Shown here: in pieces, positions 25,968 to 35,445 of the stretch | How the letters are laid out: the number at the start of each line of letters is the position of its first letter | How positions within the stretch are numbered: position 1 is the first letter of the stretch | IMG/VR virus record: IMGVR_UViG_3300044621_001089 | Location: 1-37,655 of that record | Source: a virus | Reading direction: 5' to 3' (one strand) | DNA: 37,655 nucleotides | Program-made: the position numbers and the translations under genes | Notes under the pieces: model-generated | What the model was told of the DNA's origin: nothing | The model's database searches: none | Seen by the model: the letters and a program-made list of their open reading frames with translations, nothing else

Positions 25968-28253
25968 ATGAACTTCAACCTATCTTTTTACCCAAACGTG
26001 CGCGCTCCCAAGCCTTCGCACAACATGACTTTCGAAGATTTTATAGACAATGTCCAAACCAACCAAGAGTGGCAGGAAGCCGCAGAGCAAATCCAAGCCA
26101 TAAGCGACAAGGCAGAACGCCGCGAAGCCAAAACCAAACTGCCCGGCGTACGCCTCTCGGGTACGTTTTCCGGCCAAAGCGACGACAGCATCATAACCAA
26201 GTCCGGCCTAATTGGCATGGACATAGACGACTTCTCCGGCGATTTACAACTTCTCAAGGAACAGCTTTGTCATGACCAATTTGTAGCGGGCGCATTTTTC
26301 AGCGTTTCGGGAAATGGCTTATGCGCGGTTTTCCGGATAACCACAGACGATTACGCGGAAGCATACATTCAAATTTCGGCTTACCTACGCAAAGAGTATA
26401 ACATCACCTGCGACCCCGCGTGTAAAAACATTTCCCGCTTCCGCTTTATTACCCACGACGGGCTCCCATACATAAACCTTAACGCCGTTGTTTTCGACAT
26501 TAAGCCGCCCAAGACCCAAAAGAAAGCGGACTTTGTACCCTACTCCAAAGACAGCGATGTAGAGTACATTATCGGCCAAATCCAAAACCTCGGCATAGAC
26601 ATCACCACCTCCTACGAAGATTGGCTAAAAGTTGGCTTCGCAATCGCCGACGAGTACGGCGAAAATGGTCGGAACTTTTACCACATCCTTTCCCAAAACC
26701 ACCCGGAGTACAACGAAAACACAACCAACAAAAAGTACGACTCCCTCTTACGCGGTCGCAATTCGTCTAAACGCGTATCAATTCGTTCACTTTTTTACAT
26801 CGCAGCACAACACGGCATTCGCACCGTGTCCCCCGAACGCGCCATGATTGACGCCCAAGCGCAGCGCGTTTCCAAAACCACCAACACCACACAAGACCTC
26901 GTAGGCTCTCTCGCGGCCGTGGGCGTAAACATTTCCGAAGATAATGCCAAAATAGCACTCGAAGCCGCCAAAACATCCAAGGTTTCAGGCAACGCTATGG
27001 ACTTAATTGGGCAGTTTATTATTTCAAACTTCGACCTCTACCGAAACGGCGTAACACAGCGCATCTACTGTAAGGCAGACCCGCTGCACCACAAGTTTAT
27101 CGGGGAGCAGGAAATCAACTCCATGTTTGTCCGCCTCAAGCAAATCGAACCAAAAGTTAAAATCCAAGACATTAAGGCGTACATCAACTCTGAAAACACG
27201 CCAACATTTCACCCGTTTGCGGACTTCATCGCAGAAAAACAAGGCTACGAGGGAAAAGACGTAGTGGCACAACTTATCGACTGCATCAAAGTGGAGGAAG
27301 ATAAAGCCTACGGCACAACGTGCCAGCATGGCATTTACAAACAGGTTTTCCTGCGCAAATGGCTATTGGGCGTGGTAGGCTCAATGCAAGGCCACCACAA
27401 TGAACTTATGCCTATTCTTTGCGGGGCTGGCGGTATAGGCAAGACCGTATTCGTACGCGAACTTTTACCCAAGTCCATGCGCTATCTTTTCGGAAGCGGC
27501 ATCATTGGAATGGGCAAAGACGACCAAATGAAAATGAACGAATTTCTTATCCTTTTGGACGACGAATTTTCCGGCAAAACCACCCGCGACTTTAAGACGC
27601 TTAAGCAGGTGCTTTCATTGGATTACGTTACAATCCGCTTACCCTACGCTGCCACCACCGAGAAGCTCCAGCGCATCGCTTCTTGGATTGGCACGTCAAA
27701 CGAAACCCAAATCATTGACGACCCCACAGGCAACCGCCGCTTTGTTCCCATGACCATTACCGAAATTGACCAGAAAGGCATGGAAAAAATAGACCGGGAG
27801 GCACTTTGGTCGCAGCTTGTAACTGAATACACCAAAGCCGACACCGAGGAACTACGCAAACCACACCACCTTACACGGGAGGAAATGAAGTTTTTAAATA
27901 TGGTGTCCGCCGCATACGCCGTTACATCCGCCGCCCAAGACCTTGTATCTTTAATTGTAGACCTTCCGCAAATCGGCCAAAAAGTGGAGTACCTTTCATC
28001 CTCCGAAATACTCGCGCTCATGAAAATGAAGTACCGCGTTGACCAAGTCAACCCCCAGCAAATTGGGCGCGTGCTAACATCTTTAGGCTTTGAGCAAAAC
28101 CTAAAGCGTACCGGAACAATGGTAAAGCGTATGTGGAAGGTGTCTTTAGTAAACACCGCCGACCTCGGTTTAATTGGGCGCGAAGTGGCTTTGCCGGGTT
28201 TAACACCCTATAACACTTTAACTAACGAAGATTTTTTAACTTTACCGAATTAA
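25968..28253 (+). CDS. VirE/BT4734-like primase-helicase, 761 aa
   Basis: Three parts can be seen. Residues 1-180 resemble the BT4734-like N-terminal primase region (SGLIGMDIDDF near 82, FFSVSGNGLCAVFRI near 110). Residues 195-285 resemble the PriCT-2 linker (TSYEDWLKVGFAIADEYGENG). The C-terminal part is a VirE-type P-loop ATPase with GAGGIGKT at 486-493 and FLILLDDEF near 526-534, then a sensor-like region (GTSNETQIIDDPTGNRRFV). Proteins of this type initiate and drive DNA replication in Bacteroidota phages and mobile elements. It is the main replication protein here; the iteron region lies about 3.2 kb downstream. Confidence 0.85.
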   Translation: MNFNLSFYPNVRAPKPSHNMTFEDFIDNVQTNQEWQEAAEQIQAISDKAERREAKTKLPGVRLSGTFSGQSDDSIITKSGLIGMDIDDFSGDLQLLKEQLCHDQFVAGAFFSVSGNGLCAVFRITTDDYAEAYIQISAYLRKEYNITCDPACKNISRFRFITHDGLPYINLNAVVFDIKPPKTQKKADFVPYSKDSDVEYIIGQIQNLGIDITTSYEDWLKVGFAIADEYGENGRNFYHILSQNHPEYNENTTNKKYDSLLRGRNSSKRVSIRSLFYIAAQHGIRTVSPERAMIDAQAQRVSKTTNTTQDLVGSLAAVGVNISEDNAKIALEAAKTSKVSGNAMDLIGQFIISNFDLYRNGVTQRIYCKADPLHHKFIGEQEINSMFVRLKQIEPKVKIQDIKAYINSENTPTFHPFADFIAEKQGYEGKDVVAQLIDCIKVEEDKAYGTTCQHGIYKQVFLRKWLLGVVGSMQGHHNELMPILCGAGGIGKTVFVRELLPKSMRYLFGSGIIGMGKDDQMKMNEFLILLDDEFSGKTTRDFKTLKQVLSLDYVTIRLPYAATTEKLQRIASWIGTSNETQIIDDPTGNRRFVPMTITEIDQKGMEKIDREALWSQLVTEYTKADTEELRKPHHLTREEMKFLNMVSAAYAVTSAAQDLVSLIVDLPQIGQKVEYLSSSEILALMKMKYRVDQVNPQQIGRVLTSLGFEQNLKRTGTMVKRMWKVSLVNTADLGLIGREVALPGLTPYNTLTNEDFLTLPN

Positions 28254-28266
28254 ACGCCACTACACC

Positions 28267-29265
28267 ATGAACACCACAAACGACATTACCAGCCTACTTT
28301 CAAACGTAGCCAAGGCAGCTGCCCCAACAACCATCCCCGCAACCCAAAATCTTTGCTTCCGGAACAACCAAGTGGAGGCAACCGACCTGCAAACGCACAT
28401 CGTCGCACCGCTGCCCAGCGAGCTGAACTGCCAAGTAAACGCTTCCGCTTTAATCTCGGCTTTAAAGCAAATCGAAAACCCAACCATCACCCAGCATGAG
28501 GGCTACATCCTCTTAAAAACAGCCAAGGGTAAATACAAAATGCCGTGCTACCCAGCGGAAGATTTCCCAAGCGCACCATCCGTGGTCGGCACACCACTCC
28601 AAGTGTCCTCGGAGGTTTTTGCATCGGCCATGCAATACTGCTCAAACATGGTGGGCAAAGACGAACTACGCCCCGTCATGTCTGGCATATACTTCGGCGA
28701 AAACGAAATCGCTGCAACCGACGCCACACGCCTCGCAAAAATTAGCCAAGACCACCCGCTTTCCGGCATCATTCTACCCGTTAAGCCTATCCGCTTAACC
28801 CAAGACTTTATACGCTCAAACTTCGCCGTTACCCAAGCAGACAACCACATCAAAATAGAAGCCTTTAACGCGACTATTTACGCGCGGTTAATTTCCGGTA
28901 ACTACCCGAAATACCAAGCCGTTTTCCCTTCCCACAATGCCGAATTTCAAGCCGACACCGCCGAACTTTCAACCGCTATTCGCCGCGTACTTCCCTATGC
29001 CAATAACTCCACCAACCTCATTATTTTTGACTTCGAGAAACAATGCCTAACCGCGTTTGACATAGACTTAAACAAAGAGGCAAGCGAGGGCTTTACCCTA
29101 CCTTCCGGACCAAAACAAATCGGCGTGAATGGCCGCTTTTTGGCCGACATCCTGCGCACCATCGAAACCCCAAGCATAACCATAGCCCACGGCGAACCAA
29201 ACCGCCCGCTTATTATCAAATCCAAAAACGCAGAGTTTTTATTAATGCCTATAATTTTAGCATGA
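28267..29265 (+). CDS. dnaN: DnaN-like beta sliding clamp, 332 aa
   Basis: The 332-residue protein has the DNA polymerase III beta subunit pattern: RPVMSGIYFGENEIAATDAT near residues 138-157, LISGNYPKYQAVFP near 212-225, and a C-terminal PLIIKSKNAEFLLMPIILA that includes the conserved final strand with M-P. It is slightly shorter than bacterial clamps (about 370 residues). It would encircle DNA and tether host polymerase III or a repair polymerase. No phage-encoded DNA polymerase or clamp loader was found in the window. It follows the primase-helicase gene by 13 nt and overlaps the next gene by ATGA. Confidence 0.8.
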   Translation: MNTTNDITSLLSNVAKAAAPTTIPATQNLCFRNNQVEATDLQTHIVAPLPSELNCQVNASALISALKQIENPTITQHEGYILLKTAKGKYKMPCYPAEDFPSAPSVVGTPLQVSSEVFASAMQYCSNMVGKDELRPVMSGIYFGENEIAATDATRLAKISQDHPLSGIILPVKPIRLTQDFIRSNFAVTQADNHIKIEAFNATIYARLISGNYPKYQAVFPSHNAEFQADTAELSTAIRRVLPYANNSTNLIIFDFEKQCLTAFDIDLNKEASEGFTLPSGPKQIGVNGRFLADILRTIETPSITIAHGEPNRPLIIKSKNAEFLLMPIILA

Positions 29266-30505: not shown

Positions 30506-31396
30506 ATGAAAAATTTATTAGTTTCATTTTCGGGCGGCGAAACGTCCGCATACATGGGCCAATGGCTTAAAAGGCACTATAAAGAACTTGGTTACGAAAA
30601 CATCGTTTTTGTGTTTGCAAACACTGGTCTTGAAAATGAGCAGACATTAGAGTTTGTTGATAAATGCGACAAGCACTTTGGCCTAAATGTGCATTGGGTA
30701 GAGGCTAAAGTTATTTTTCATGCAGGCGTTGGAACCACATATACAATAACAAATTTTGAAAACGCAAATAGAAACGGGTACGTTTTTGAGCAGTTTATCA
30801 AAAAGTATGGCATACCAAACCAAGCCTCACCCCAATGCAGCAAAGAGTTAAAGCAAACACCAATTCGCGCCTTTTGCAAGGATTATTTTAAAACAGAAAA
30901 ATATGACACCGCTATTGGCATCAGAAAAGACGAGTTTGACCGAATGAACGCAGAAAGAAAAAAACTACGAATTATATACCCGCTTATTGACCCCAAAATG
31001 CTTCCTGCAACAAAGCCAATGGTTAATTTTTTCTGGAAGCAAATGCCTTTTAGATTAAACCTAAAGGGTTACCAGGGCAACTGCGCTACCTGCTGGAAAA
31101 AGTCGGATAAGAAGCTATGGCAGATAGCCAAGGAATCACCGGAAAAGTTTGACTTCATGGCAAGAATGGAGCAAGAATATGGAGACTATTTCCCTCCACA
31201 AAGGGTTGAAAGATATAATAAAGAAGGAAAACCAATTCCGCAAAACATTAAGTTTTTTAGAGGCGAAAGAAGCGTGCAGGACATTTTACGGGAATCCAAA
31301 AACTTTAATGGCATAGTTAAAAACGATGCGGAAAATTATGCAATACAGAAGGAACTTTTTGAGGACGAATCCTGCGACATATACACCAAGTGTTAA
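30506..31396 (+). CDS. PAPS reductase/adenine nucleotide alpha-hydrolase-like protein, 296 aa
   Basis: The N-terminus MKNLLVSFSGGETSAYMGQW carries the PP-loop SGGxTS at residues 9-14. FVFANTGLENEQTLEF follows, as in phosphoadenosine-phosphosulfate reductase-fold enzymes. QCSKELKQTPI near residue 110 is the second nucleotide-side motif. GNCATCWKKS near residue 193 adds a CxxC that could bind metal or Fe-S. Such proteins act in sulfur transfer or nucleotide activation. In phages they are widespread but poorly defined, and DndC-type DNA phosphorothioation enzymes are related. The gene is alone between two terminators with its own promoter and is AT-richer than its neighbours, so it may be acquired. 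Confidence 0.75.
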   Translation: MKNLLVSFSGGETSAYMGQWLKRHYKELGYENIVFVFANTGLENEQTLEFVDKCDKHFGLNVHWVEAKVIFHAGVGTTYTITNFENANRNGYVFEQFIKKYGIPNQASPQCSKELKQTPIRAFCKDYFKTEKYDTAIGIRKDEFDRMNAERKKLRIIYPLIDPKMLPATKPMVNFFWKQMPFRLNLKGYQGNCATCWKKSDKKLWQIAKESPEKFDFMARMEQEYGDYFPPQRVERYNKEGKPIPQNIKFFRGERSVQDILRESKNFNGIVKNDAENYAIQKELFEDESCDIYTKC

Positions 31397-31401
31397 TAAG
31401 C

Positions 31402-31425
31402 AGCCCCCACTTAGGGGGCTTTTTT
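31402..31425 (+). terminator. Rho-independent terminator after the PAPS-reductase-like gene
   Basis: AGCCCCC (31402-31408) pairs with GGGGGCT (31414-31420) around a 5-nt loop, followed by five T. Confidence 0.87.
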
Positions 31426-32212
31426 GTGTCCTATAATATAGTTTACCCTTTGGCACGCCTCGCGATATATAAGTTTTATTTATCTTTTGCCAGCAACCCA
31501 TAAAACCAGCTTATAATAGCCCCTTTTTGCTTACTCGTTTTTTGAGTAATGGTTACAACTTTTATGGGGTATATATCCAGCCCCTGTATTTTCGGTAAAA
31601 GTTTCAAACGATTTTTGCACTTTTTTTTACTTTTTTTCAACAGCCTATTTTTGTCAATTTTAAATTTACACACCACCGCGTTTTTTCCGATAAATTGCAA
31701 CTCGCAAGCCATTCCCCCACAGCCCTTTACGCCCATTTTCCGCCATATTTTAACCCGTTTTTTTCCGATAAAAGTTTGTAACAGTGTGTTTTTTTACTGT
31801 TACACTCCAAGCCTCGCAGCCTCAATGCGTTACAAGGGTTTTGTAACAGATATTTTTTCGCTGTTACACGCTACAGCCCTACTCCCACGGGCGTTCCCCG
31901 CGTTTCTGTAACAGATATCGACATTTCAAAAACTATATAAAAAATAGGGGTATTCAAAGTACCAAATTTTACTATTTATTATTAAGTTTCTATTAGGGTA
32001 TATATCTTACAACATATAGTTGTAACCATTTCTATACAATGTTTACTAATATTTTCTGTTACCTGTTACAGAGTATTATATTATATAGTAAAGACGGGGG
32101 TTGTAGGCTGTAACAGATTTTTTTTATCTGTTACAATCTGTTACAATTTGGTGGAATGGAAAAATTTGTTTTATTTGGTGGCCGAACAAAAACAGAAAAT
32201 CAAGCATAGTTT
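31426..32212. other. Non-coding AT-rich region, candidate origin or packaging site
   Basis: This is the longest stretch without a supported gene (about 790 bp). The left part (31426-31770) is T-rich on the + strand with runs such as TTTTTTTTAC. It has three related copies of a T-rich motif ending CCGATAAA or CGGTAAAA (31588-31609, 31681-31702 and 31758-31782). The right part holds TGTAACAG iterons and several hairpins (listed separately). It lies between the replication operon and the terminase operon. Frames at 31549-31911 (+) and 31476-31736 (-) are low-complexity and rejected. The next gene starts at 32213. Confidence 0.65.
31777..32145. repeat. TGTAACAG/CTGTTACA iteron array with perfect hairpins
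   Basis: Nine exact copies of the 8-mer in either orientation start at 31777, 31797, 31842, 31861, 31907, 32063, 32109, 32128 and 32138, with near matches at 31829 and 32056. Three perfect inverted pairs form hairpins: 31777-31785 with 31796-31804 (9 bp), 31842-31849 with 31861-31868 (8 bp), and 32109-32118 with 32126-32135 (10 bp, T7 loop). The last arm is repeated in tandem at 32136-32145. A related palindrome TTACAAC-ATATA-GTTGTAA lies at 32007-32025. Such density cannot be chance. Confidence 0.85.
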
Positions 32213-32557
32213 ATGAAACGCATCGAAGACCACATCCAAGCGGAAATTGTTAAGTGGTGGCAGACGACCTACCCAGCGAGAGCCGCCGACCTTATACACA
32301 TCCCAAATGAGGGCAAAAGGAGCGCGCAGGAGGCCGGAAGGATGGCGGCGTTAGGGTTGATGCCCGGCGCACCCGATTTAATCGTTCATATCGGCTTTAA
32401 TCACTTCGTGCCGATTGAGGTGAAAGCACCCGGCGGGCGGCTATCCCAAAGTCAAAAAAACTTAAATCGCTTTTGGGGTGCGCGGGGAACTGAAATACAC
32501 GTCGTATATTCGTTAGAGGATTTCCAAAAAGTCATATCCCCATGGATGAAGAAATAA
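32213..32557 (+). CDS. VRR-NUC domain nuclease, 114 aa
   Basis: The 114-residue protein is a stand-alone VRR-NUC module. GAPDLIV supplies Asp55, and FVPIEVKAPGG supplies Glu69 and Lys71 of the PD-(D/E)XK core. SQSQ (Gln81) follows in the expected helix, and Glu11 in the N-terminal helix is also typical. Such small phage nucleases cut branched or single-stranded DNA and often act near replication or packaging genes. It is the first gene after the iteron region and overlaps the next gene by 16 nt. Confidence 0.86.
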   Translation: MKRIEDHIQAEIVKWWQTTYPARAADLIHIPNEGKRSAQEAGRMAALGLMPGAPDLIVHIGFNHFVPIEVKAPGGRLSQSQKNLNRFWGARGTEIHVVYSLEDFQKVISPWMKK

Positions 32558-33151: not shown

Positions 33152-33502
33152 ATGACCGCGCGTGAGGCTTATGCCATAGTGTGGTCGGCAGTTTGCAAGG
33201 GCGACCTAATTGCAGCCGCTGGGAGGACGGCAGCAAAGGGTGGCCCTTGTTCTATTTCTGAATTGGTAGCCCTGTTGAAATCCGAAGCGGGCGTATGGGA
33301 AGACCACCTATTGACCGACAGGGAACGCGCTAAGAACACATTGAGATTTGTAACCGAGCGCGGCCGTTCGGAATTGGCACGCGTAACCGCTGCGCGCACC
33401 TTGGTAGATATGTTGGAGGTAGACGGGCTAAACCCGAATGCTGACCGAGCCAAGATGCCAAGCGAAATAATATTTAAAGTACACGCGCCGAATGCTGAAT
33501 GA
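33152..33502 (+). CDS. Putative terminase small subunit, 116 aa
   Basis: The 116-residue protein lies directly before the large terminase gene and overlaps it by 11 nt. It is helical, with a region (ARVTAARTLVDMLEVDGLNP) and an end (PSEIIFKV) that resemble C-terminal parts of phage small terminases. An N-terminal helix-turn-helix for DNA recognition is possible (CSISELVALLKSEAG near residues 33-47) but not clear. It would bind the packaging site; the iteron region 1 kb upstream is one candidate. Confidence 0.62.
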   Translation: MTAREAYAIVWSAVCKGDLIAAAGRTAAKGGPCSISELVALLKSEAGVWEDHLLTDRERAKNTLRFVTERGRSELARVTAARTLVDMLEVDGLNPNADRAKMPSEIIFKVHAPNAE

Positions 33503-34808
33503 CCTTATATTAAACCTAAAGCAGAACGAAACCCTAACTGAAAGCCTAAAGTATAGGCTTTTTGCGTTTGTTGGGGGGATTAGGGGAGGTAAGACCATAA
33601 CGGGCAGCCATTGGGCATTGCGCAACATCCTGTCGCGCCCAAACGAAAAGGGCGGCATATTCTCCAACACTAACAAGCAGTTAAACCAAGCTACCCTAAG
33701 CGAGTTCATCAAGGTGCTGGATTATTATGGGCTGCATAGAGGAGTTTACTACGTTACCGGAAAAGACCCCGAAAGGTTCTTTGGTTACAAGTCCAAGTTC
33801 GACAGGCATGACGGCGTTTGGTCGTTCGCAAATGGTGCGCAGGTTATTGTGTTTTCGATTGAAACCATGATCCGCGGTATTGAGTTAGGCTGGTGCTGGG
33901 GGGATGAAGTACAGGACGCACCCGTTGAGAGCCTTAACGTGGTGCTGGGGCGTATGTCCGGAAGCGCGACCCCAAACACGCTATGGACAATGACGCCGCC
34001 AGCGAATAACCCCGGCATGGACAACTTAATTTACGGGGAGAATCCGATACCTCATGTGATTAGCACGACATACGACAACGCGGCGAACCTACCGGAAGGG
34101 TATGTGGAAGGATTGAGGGAGCGATATGATGACCTTTGGTTTGATCGTGAGGTGCTGGCGAAGCGCGTAACCATGTCGGGGCGAAATTGGCTTTATGCTT
34201 TTGACCGAAGTAGGCACGTGGGGAAAGTGGAGTATGTGCCGGACCTACCCGTTTATGTCAGTATTGACTTTAACGTATCGCCATTCGTAGCGGTGTTAGC
34301 GCAGCGCGGCGGCGGTGGTAGACAGGCATGGGTGCATTATTTTGACGAGGTGGTGATGCGAGACACCGAGGTGGGGAGTAGAACCTACATTGAGGCATTA
34401 TGTGAGGCCATACGGCAAAGGACACCGCAAGCGGCGGAGCGTAACTTATACTACGTTACGGGGGATGCCAGCGGGCGTGCGCAGTCGGTCATAAGTAGAC
34501 CGGGCGTAAATTATTGGACAGAGGTAGCGCAGTACTTACGGGTTGGTTACAACAAAATGAACGTGCCGTCATCTAACCCGCCGTTGGTGGAGAGCAGGCG
34601 GTTATGCAATGCGATATTTGCGAAGTTTCCGGATATTAAGATTTCGCCGAAGTGTGCGACATTGATTATGGATTGCGAGTTTGTAAAGGCAAAGAACGGG
34701 GCGGAGATAGACAAGAGCAGCCGGGCGAATGTGCACCAGCGGGCGGATGCTTTGGACGCGCTTAGGTACGACTTACAGGCAAACAATGCGGGGTGGGTTG
34801 AGCGTTGA
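33492..34808 (+). CDS. Terminase large subunit, 438 aa
   Basis: The ATPase domain has FVGGIRGGKT near residues 26-35 (Walker A) and ELGWCWGDEVQ near 131-140 (Walker B with catalytic Glu). The nuclease domain has VSIDFN near residues 255-260, YVTGDASG near 321-328 and RADALDALRYDL near 416-428, which supply the acidic metal-binding residues of the RNase H-like fold. The length (438) is normal. It pumps DNA into proheads and cuts the concatemer. In most siphoviruses the portal gene follows directly; here it is about 18.4 kb away when the ends are joined. Confidence 0.92.
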   Translation: MLNDLILNLKQNETLTESLKYRLFAFVGGIRGGKTITGSHWALRNILSRPNEKGGIFSNTNKQLNQATLSEFIKVLDYYGLHRGVYYVTGKDPERFFGYKSKFDRHDGVWSFANGAQVIVFSIETMIRGIELGWCWGDEVQDAPVESLNVVLGRMSGSATPNTLWTMTPPANNPGMDNLIYGENPIPHVISTTYDNAANLPEGYVEGLRERYDDLWFDREVLAKRVTMSGRNWLYAFDRSRHVGKVEYVPDLPVYVSIDFNVSPFVAVLAQRGGGGRQAWVHYFDEVVMRDTEVGSRTYIEALCEAIRQRTPQAAERNLYYVTGDASGRAQSVISRPGVNYWTEVAQYLRVGYNKMNVPSSNPPLVESRRLCNAIFAKFPDIKISPKCATLIMDCEFVKAKNGAEIDKSSRANVHQRADALDALRYDLQANNAGWVER

Positions 34809-35418: not shown

Positions 35419-35445
35419 GCGGGGTGTAACAGCCCCGCTTTTTTT
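35419..35445 (+). terminator. Rho-independent terminator, loop carries the iteron 8-mer
   Basis: GCGGGG (35419-35424) pairs with CCCCGC (35433-35438), followed by seven T. The 8-nt loop is TGTAACAG, the same 8-mer as the iterons at 31777-32145. Confidence 0.87.

Follow-up and report, generated by a model that had tools for sequence, protein, structure and literature searches.

A probable replication origin of P4/PICI build in a tailed phage encoding a VapE-type helicase-primase

Replication origins of the P4/PICI kind are known from small satellite elements. In satellite phage P4 (NC_001609), repeats of about 8 bp occur in both orientations at spacings of 9–11, 18–22 and 43 bp; the annotated type-1 repeats, mostly TGTTCACC, are spaced 10, 11, 22, 43 and 10 bp in ori and 9, 43, 18 and 14 bp in crr. 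These two loci are about 4.7 kb apart, crr being located directly 3' of the gene for the alpha helicase-primase and ori remote from it, and a winged helix of alpha binds the P4 repeats (PMC4234260). The origins of PICIs, including SaPIs, lie 3' of the replication gene and consist of two iteron sets around an A+T-rich region (PMC6092414). The SaPI Rep protein recognises its iterons through a C-terminal domain, as the SCCmec protein Cch2 does its repeats (PMC7581432). SCCmec Cch2 and pRN1 are further cases of a self-loading helicase with sequences adjoining its own gene (PMC7581432, PMC4234260), and stem-loops 3' of the primase-helicase gene have been proposed as the origins of pRN1 and of phage BIP-1 (PMC4234260).

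The stretch analysed here (the window) is an IMG/VR virus record of 37,655 bases from a tailed phage, with the main genes all in the + direction. Its largest inter-ORF gap (31397–32212, 816 bp; the runner-up has 358 bp, which bears out an earlier note, made from the sequence alone, that had called it the only large non-coding region) is bounded by a PAPS-reductase-like gene ending at 31396 and by a gene for a VRR-NUC nuclease (32213–32557, +; PF08774), and a terminator-like hairpin recognisable in the sequence (31402–31420, +) closes the upstream operon. Within 369 bp of this gap (31777–32145), the 8-mer TGTAACAG/CTGTTACA occurs in nine exact copies. By comparison, 1000 dinucleotide shuffles of 31397–32212 never gave any 8-mer more than four times per 370 bp, and elsewhere in the window just one further exact copy is found, at 35425 within an ORF. 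Iteron 1 (TGTAACAG, 31777–31784, +) forms an inverted pair with iteron 2 (31797–31804, −), as does iteron 3 (31842–31849, +) with iteron 4 (31861–31868, −), and iteron 5 (31907–31914, +) marks the left edge of a 141-bp gap with 79% A+T (31915–32055), the proposed melting site. At the right edge of this gap lies iteron 6 (32063–32070, −), preceded by the near-copy CTGTTACC (32056–32063, −), which is of the TGTAACA type in the relative L132; iteron 7 (32109–32116, +) is paired in inverted orientation with iteron 8 (32128–32135, −), which iteron 9 (32138–32145, −) repeats directly at 10 bp. The two iteron sets thus span 31777–31914 and 32056–32145, and the start-to-start distances are 20, 45, 19, 46, 156, 46, 19 and 10 bp. 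The description of the region as A+T-rich holds for the middle gap and fails for the left iteron set, which has 53% A+T.

The finer elements of the array described in the earlier note were each recovered, namely hairpins with stems of 9, 8 and 10 bp, a tandem ATCTGTTACA (32126–32145) and the palindrome TTACAAC-ATATA-GTTGTAA (32007–32025), which consists of degenerate iterons within the gap. When the window was aligned with four close relatives, 1 of 72 iteron columns and 44 of 297 spacer columns were variable (Fisher p = 5e-4), showing the conservation of the 8-mer in related phages that the same note had proposed as a check; the palindrome contains no variable column. Since L132 has lost the ninth pair of the first hairpin stem yet keeps both 8-mers, the hairpins are, as judged from these sequences, better read as inverted iteron pairs. 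In all three inverted pairs (31777–31804, 31842–31868 and 32109–32135), left and right of the gap, the + strand has six to eight consecutive T between the iterons, never A. Another related word, GGTTACAAC/GTTGTAACC, is present at 31551–31559, outside the array, and at 32019–32028, forming a 16-bp inverted repeat (94%) with copies 457 bp apart, both of which are kept in the relatives.

The proposed initiator is encoded at 25968–28253 (+) and is a diverged VapE-type helicase-primase with a BT4734-like N-terminus, PriCT-2 and a VapE ATPase (PF08800, PF08707, PF05272). Its sequence matches PriRep1 (PDB 7pds) with E = 3e-8, and 7pds is also the top Foldseek match (E = 3.7e-14) of a structure model that is itself of low confidence (mean pLDDT 54); a single-sequence structure prediction (pLDDT 34) was discarded. 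The C-terminus is modelled, likewise with low confidence, as helix-helix-helix-strand-strand. Within it, a winged-helix-like segment (about residues 655–725, 27930–28142, +) is proposed to read the iterons, on the basis of this weak model (pLDDT mostly 40–60 there) and of the aligned C-termini of kin. A sliding-clamp (beta) homologue follows directly (28267–29265, +; PF00712/PF02767/PF02768).

Comparison with the described systems reveals a close likeness in layout. The window spacings of 10, 19–20 and 45–46 bp correspond to the three spacing groups of P4, whose iteron TGTTCACC is similar to CTGTTACA of the window. With TGTTACA as plus, the right half of the array reads +, − (46), + (19), + (10), and P4 ori reversed contains +, − (43), + (22), + (11). 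The window differs from P4 in that its two iteron sets flank a single A+T-rich gap, and its helicase, unlike alpha, does not carry a Toprim-type primase. With PICIs and SaPIs it shares the two-set layout and a helicase homologous to PriRep1, the comparison with SaPIs covering layout and helicase. Thus, two iteron sets around an A+T-rich region, the P4 type-1 spacing and a helicase-primase of the P4 alpha/SaPI Rep/PriRep group are all present, whereas the position typical of PICIs, immediately 3' of the helicase gene, is not, the array lying 3.5 kb and four genes away. The iteron word is also a different one, and only the origin is PICI-like: the window encodes a large terminase and a tape-measure-like ORF and is a full tailed phage, as opposed to a phage-induced satellite without structural genes. 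The origins of SCCmec Cch2, with three AAGTG repeats, and of pRN1, with one long stem-loop and no iterons, are unlike that of the window.

We explored how widely this layout occurs by scanning IMG/VR for a TGTAACA module, which returned at least 119 stretches; matches with all spacings in multiples of three (e.g. L221, L230, L189) were filtered out because they look like coding repeats. Among the matches listed, many are A+T-rich arrays of 8–15 copies, often adjoining helicase-primases of 700–900 residues that belong to the VapE class (PF05272), to DUF3987 (PF13148) with Prim-Pol, or to DUF927 with Toprim and a Cch-type HTH; D5_N/DUF5906 helicases are found elsewhere in the records of such loci. 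Of the genes next to arrays, VRR-NUC is the commonest (20 of 65 array loci among the matches listed, median distance 100 bp), and helicase, array, VRR-NUC and DEAD helicase is a frequent gene order in these loci. Some array contigs have no known helicase near the array. About a dozen contigs (L184, L208, L344 and similar) contain a TGTAACA cluster with spacings of 9, 11, 13, 70 and about 178 and no recognised helicase in the stretch examined. In L012 (4397–5117) and L044 (255–975), TGTAACAG occurs seven or eight times with a period of 75–78 bp, a tandem repeat unlike the origin arrays. Three related phages (records G003, G011 and G022; loci L297/L298, L303/L304 and L318/L320) have a pair of TGTAACA arrays: one lies close to the genes presumed to serve packaging, the other near the record ends (in G003 beside a serine integrase). 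Each pair may be made up of two origins, or of one origin plus an array for copy control, as with crr in P4. DnaA boxes adjoin the array of L048, from G003. A megablast comparison of the array phages L175, L234 and L048 with named phages gave no match.

The word itself is not the constant feature. With the heptamer scrambled to TGAATCA and the layout unchanged, 16 matches were obtained, compared with the at least 119 for TGTAACA. Of the 16, five (L352, L353, L356, L358 and L367) hold arrays of 7–13 copies, some spaced in the same way; TGTAACA was therefore rejected as a universal word, the layout being constant and the word not. We then retrieved 80 VapE and 80 DUF3987 loci by protein, blind to repeats, and searched for any repeated 7-mer adjoining the helicase gene. 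Arrays with at least six copies were found beside the helicase in 59 of 80 VapE and 68 of 80 DUF3987 loci (the shuffled maxima were four and five), fractions that are not estimates for all phages because the loci were picked for their likeness to helicases that have arrays. Every one of the 59 VapE arrays lies 3' of the helicase gene. The iteron words vary (TGTAACA, GTTTACA, GTCAACA, GGTTTAA, TGCGCAA and others), and the spacings cluster at 43–47 bp for opposite-strand neighbours and at 8–13 bp for same-strand neighbours. A spacing of 41–48 bp is present in 63% of the VapE and 82% of the DUF3987 arrays, compared with about 40% for randomly placed words.

Outside the species of the window phage, homologues of its helicase are found in Bacteroidota; in IMG/VR, its distant kin amount to one 25%-identical locus, all others being near-identical. 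In G442 (31% identity over nearly full length) and G114, an array with a different word lies directly 3' of the helicase, in integrase-like/HTH/VapE neighbourhoods (the integrase call was made by eye). Neighbourhoods of this order (integrase-like gene, HTH, VapE, array) in Bacteroidota genomes, at L541 (5303–10370) and L542 (3376–10000), look PICI-like and may be satellites of Bacteroidota phages. Named phages also contain such arrays: the cultured Flavobacterium phage mumin6-4 has eight copies of AGGTAAC in the slot of the window array, after VapE and before VRR-NUC, with TerS and TerL downstream, one gene from the helicase and with no origin annotation, and Paenibacillus phage AJG77 has ten copies of CTGCAAC between VapE and VRR-NUC. 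No exact array was found beside the helicase in the VapE phages phi46:1, P12024L, BT03, BU2-1, Javan100 and SH-St 15644, nor in the streptococcal satellites Javan56 and Javan168.

We compared iteron similarity with protein identity segment by segment, with overall identity removed. Among DUF3987 helicases, the signal is clear for the last 80 and the last 45 columns of the C-terminus, with partial r of 0.38 and 0.44 and p = 0.003 (the lowest value attainable with 300 permutations), and the segment 320–400 is weakly positive as well (r = 0.15). In VapE, the C-terminal segment alone is significant, with a weak effect (last 80 columns, r = 0.10, p = 0.01). This covariation agrees with the literature on SaPI Rep, Cch2 and P4 alpha (PMC7581432, PMC4234260), and the helicase C-terminus is likely, on these sequence comparisons, to be the reader of the iterons.

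The earlier note had offered, besides an origin bound by a phage initiator, a pac or cos site at which the small terminase would start packaging. The terminase genes (small terminase candidate, 33152–33502; large subunit, 33492–34808, +, phrog_2) indeed follow the array at a distance of about 1 kb, and several phages have similar arrays upstream of TerS-TerL-like genes. However, the 38 loci that we found via the large terminase, mostly at 63% identity, contain no VapE, DUF3987 or D5 helicase and no two-orientation array, and 33 of them have VRR-NUC; the presence of the array is thus tied neither to the terminase nor to VRR-NUC. Such arrays accompany helicases in satellites and integrated elements instead, adjoin homologues of the VapE helicase in unrelated elements, and change their word with the helicase C-terminus, so that a packaging site appears very improbable. 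Of the three proteins named in the note as potential binders, it is the VirE/VapE helicase-primase (25968) that these results single out, in support of the origin reading.

Recognition as hairpins, extruded as single strands or transcribed into RNA, would account for the three perfect hairpins with T-rich loops and has a precedent in the stem-loop origins proposed for pRN1 and BIP-1, but the relatives differ at the stem ends while the 8-mers are constant, inverted pairs are no more typical of the class than direct repeats at 8–13 bp, and no Rfam family scored above its gathering threshold; we regard this explanation, too, as highly unlikely. Slightly less improbable, though still unlikely, is an operator array for a transcription regulator of the late operon that starts with VRR-NUC. 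The array directly precedes this operon, inverted pairs 19–20 bp apart fit dimeric regulators, and small HTH-like proteins are encoded (22751). Nevertheless, no convincing promoter, none beyond chance, was found in the array, nine copies around an A+T-rich gap are more than operators usually have, and the linkage to helicases across families would be left unexplained; a regulatory role would, moreover, be compatible with an origin role. The cluster of DnaA boxes expected of a DnaA-dependent origin was not found, there being no TTATCCACA box in 31777–32145 even with one mismatch allowed.

We therefore consider 31777–32145 to be the DNA replication origin of this Bacteroidota-type phage, of P4/PICI build, with a probability of roughly 0.83. 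This reading builds on the architecture of the array, its linkage to helicase classes, its conservation and the observation that, across families, the iteron varies together with the helicase C-terminus. By analogy with P4 and SaPI biochemistry, the C-terminal winged-helix-like segment of the VapE-type helicase-primase would bind the TGTAACAG iterons, the protein occupying both sets on one helix face and assembling on either side of the A+T-rich gap. The assembled protein would then melt the gap, load as a self-loading helicase and, once the origin fires, prime replication, probably with the phage's own clamp. GC skew, which the earlier note had suggested as a check, shifts across the array in the window (GC3 skew of −0.33 on the left and +0.07 on the right, permutation p = 5e-5) but is inconsistent across the array class. 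It was dropped as proof of an origin, and counts for little in the window because early and late genes also differ there.

This kind of origin is already known from P4 and PICIs; its frequency in ordinary tailed phages contradicts a published claim that it is absent from all other bacterial replicons. In the open-access literature, to which our search was largely confined, we found no description of such arrays in VapE or DUF3987 phages. It seems somewhat more probable than not that the P4/PICI origin plan is standard in many tailed phages, in Bacteroidota, Firmicutes and probably further phyla, and common to VapE, DUF3987 with Prim-Pol, DUF927/Cch and D5/DUF5906 helicases, the spacing grammar being fixed and the iteron words free to change in coevolution with the helicase C-terminus. 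If so, the PICI origin, supposed to be unique, would be a module passing between PICIs and ordinary phages, and a satellite could compete with its helper for one initiator where the two share a word. For phages known from metagenomes, whose origins are mostly unknown, a helicase-linked spacing grammar would allow origin and initiator to be called jointly from the sequence, and the recognition code would become directly testable through the way in which iteron word and helicase C-terminus covary.
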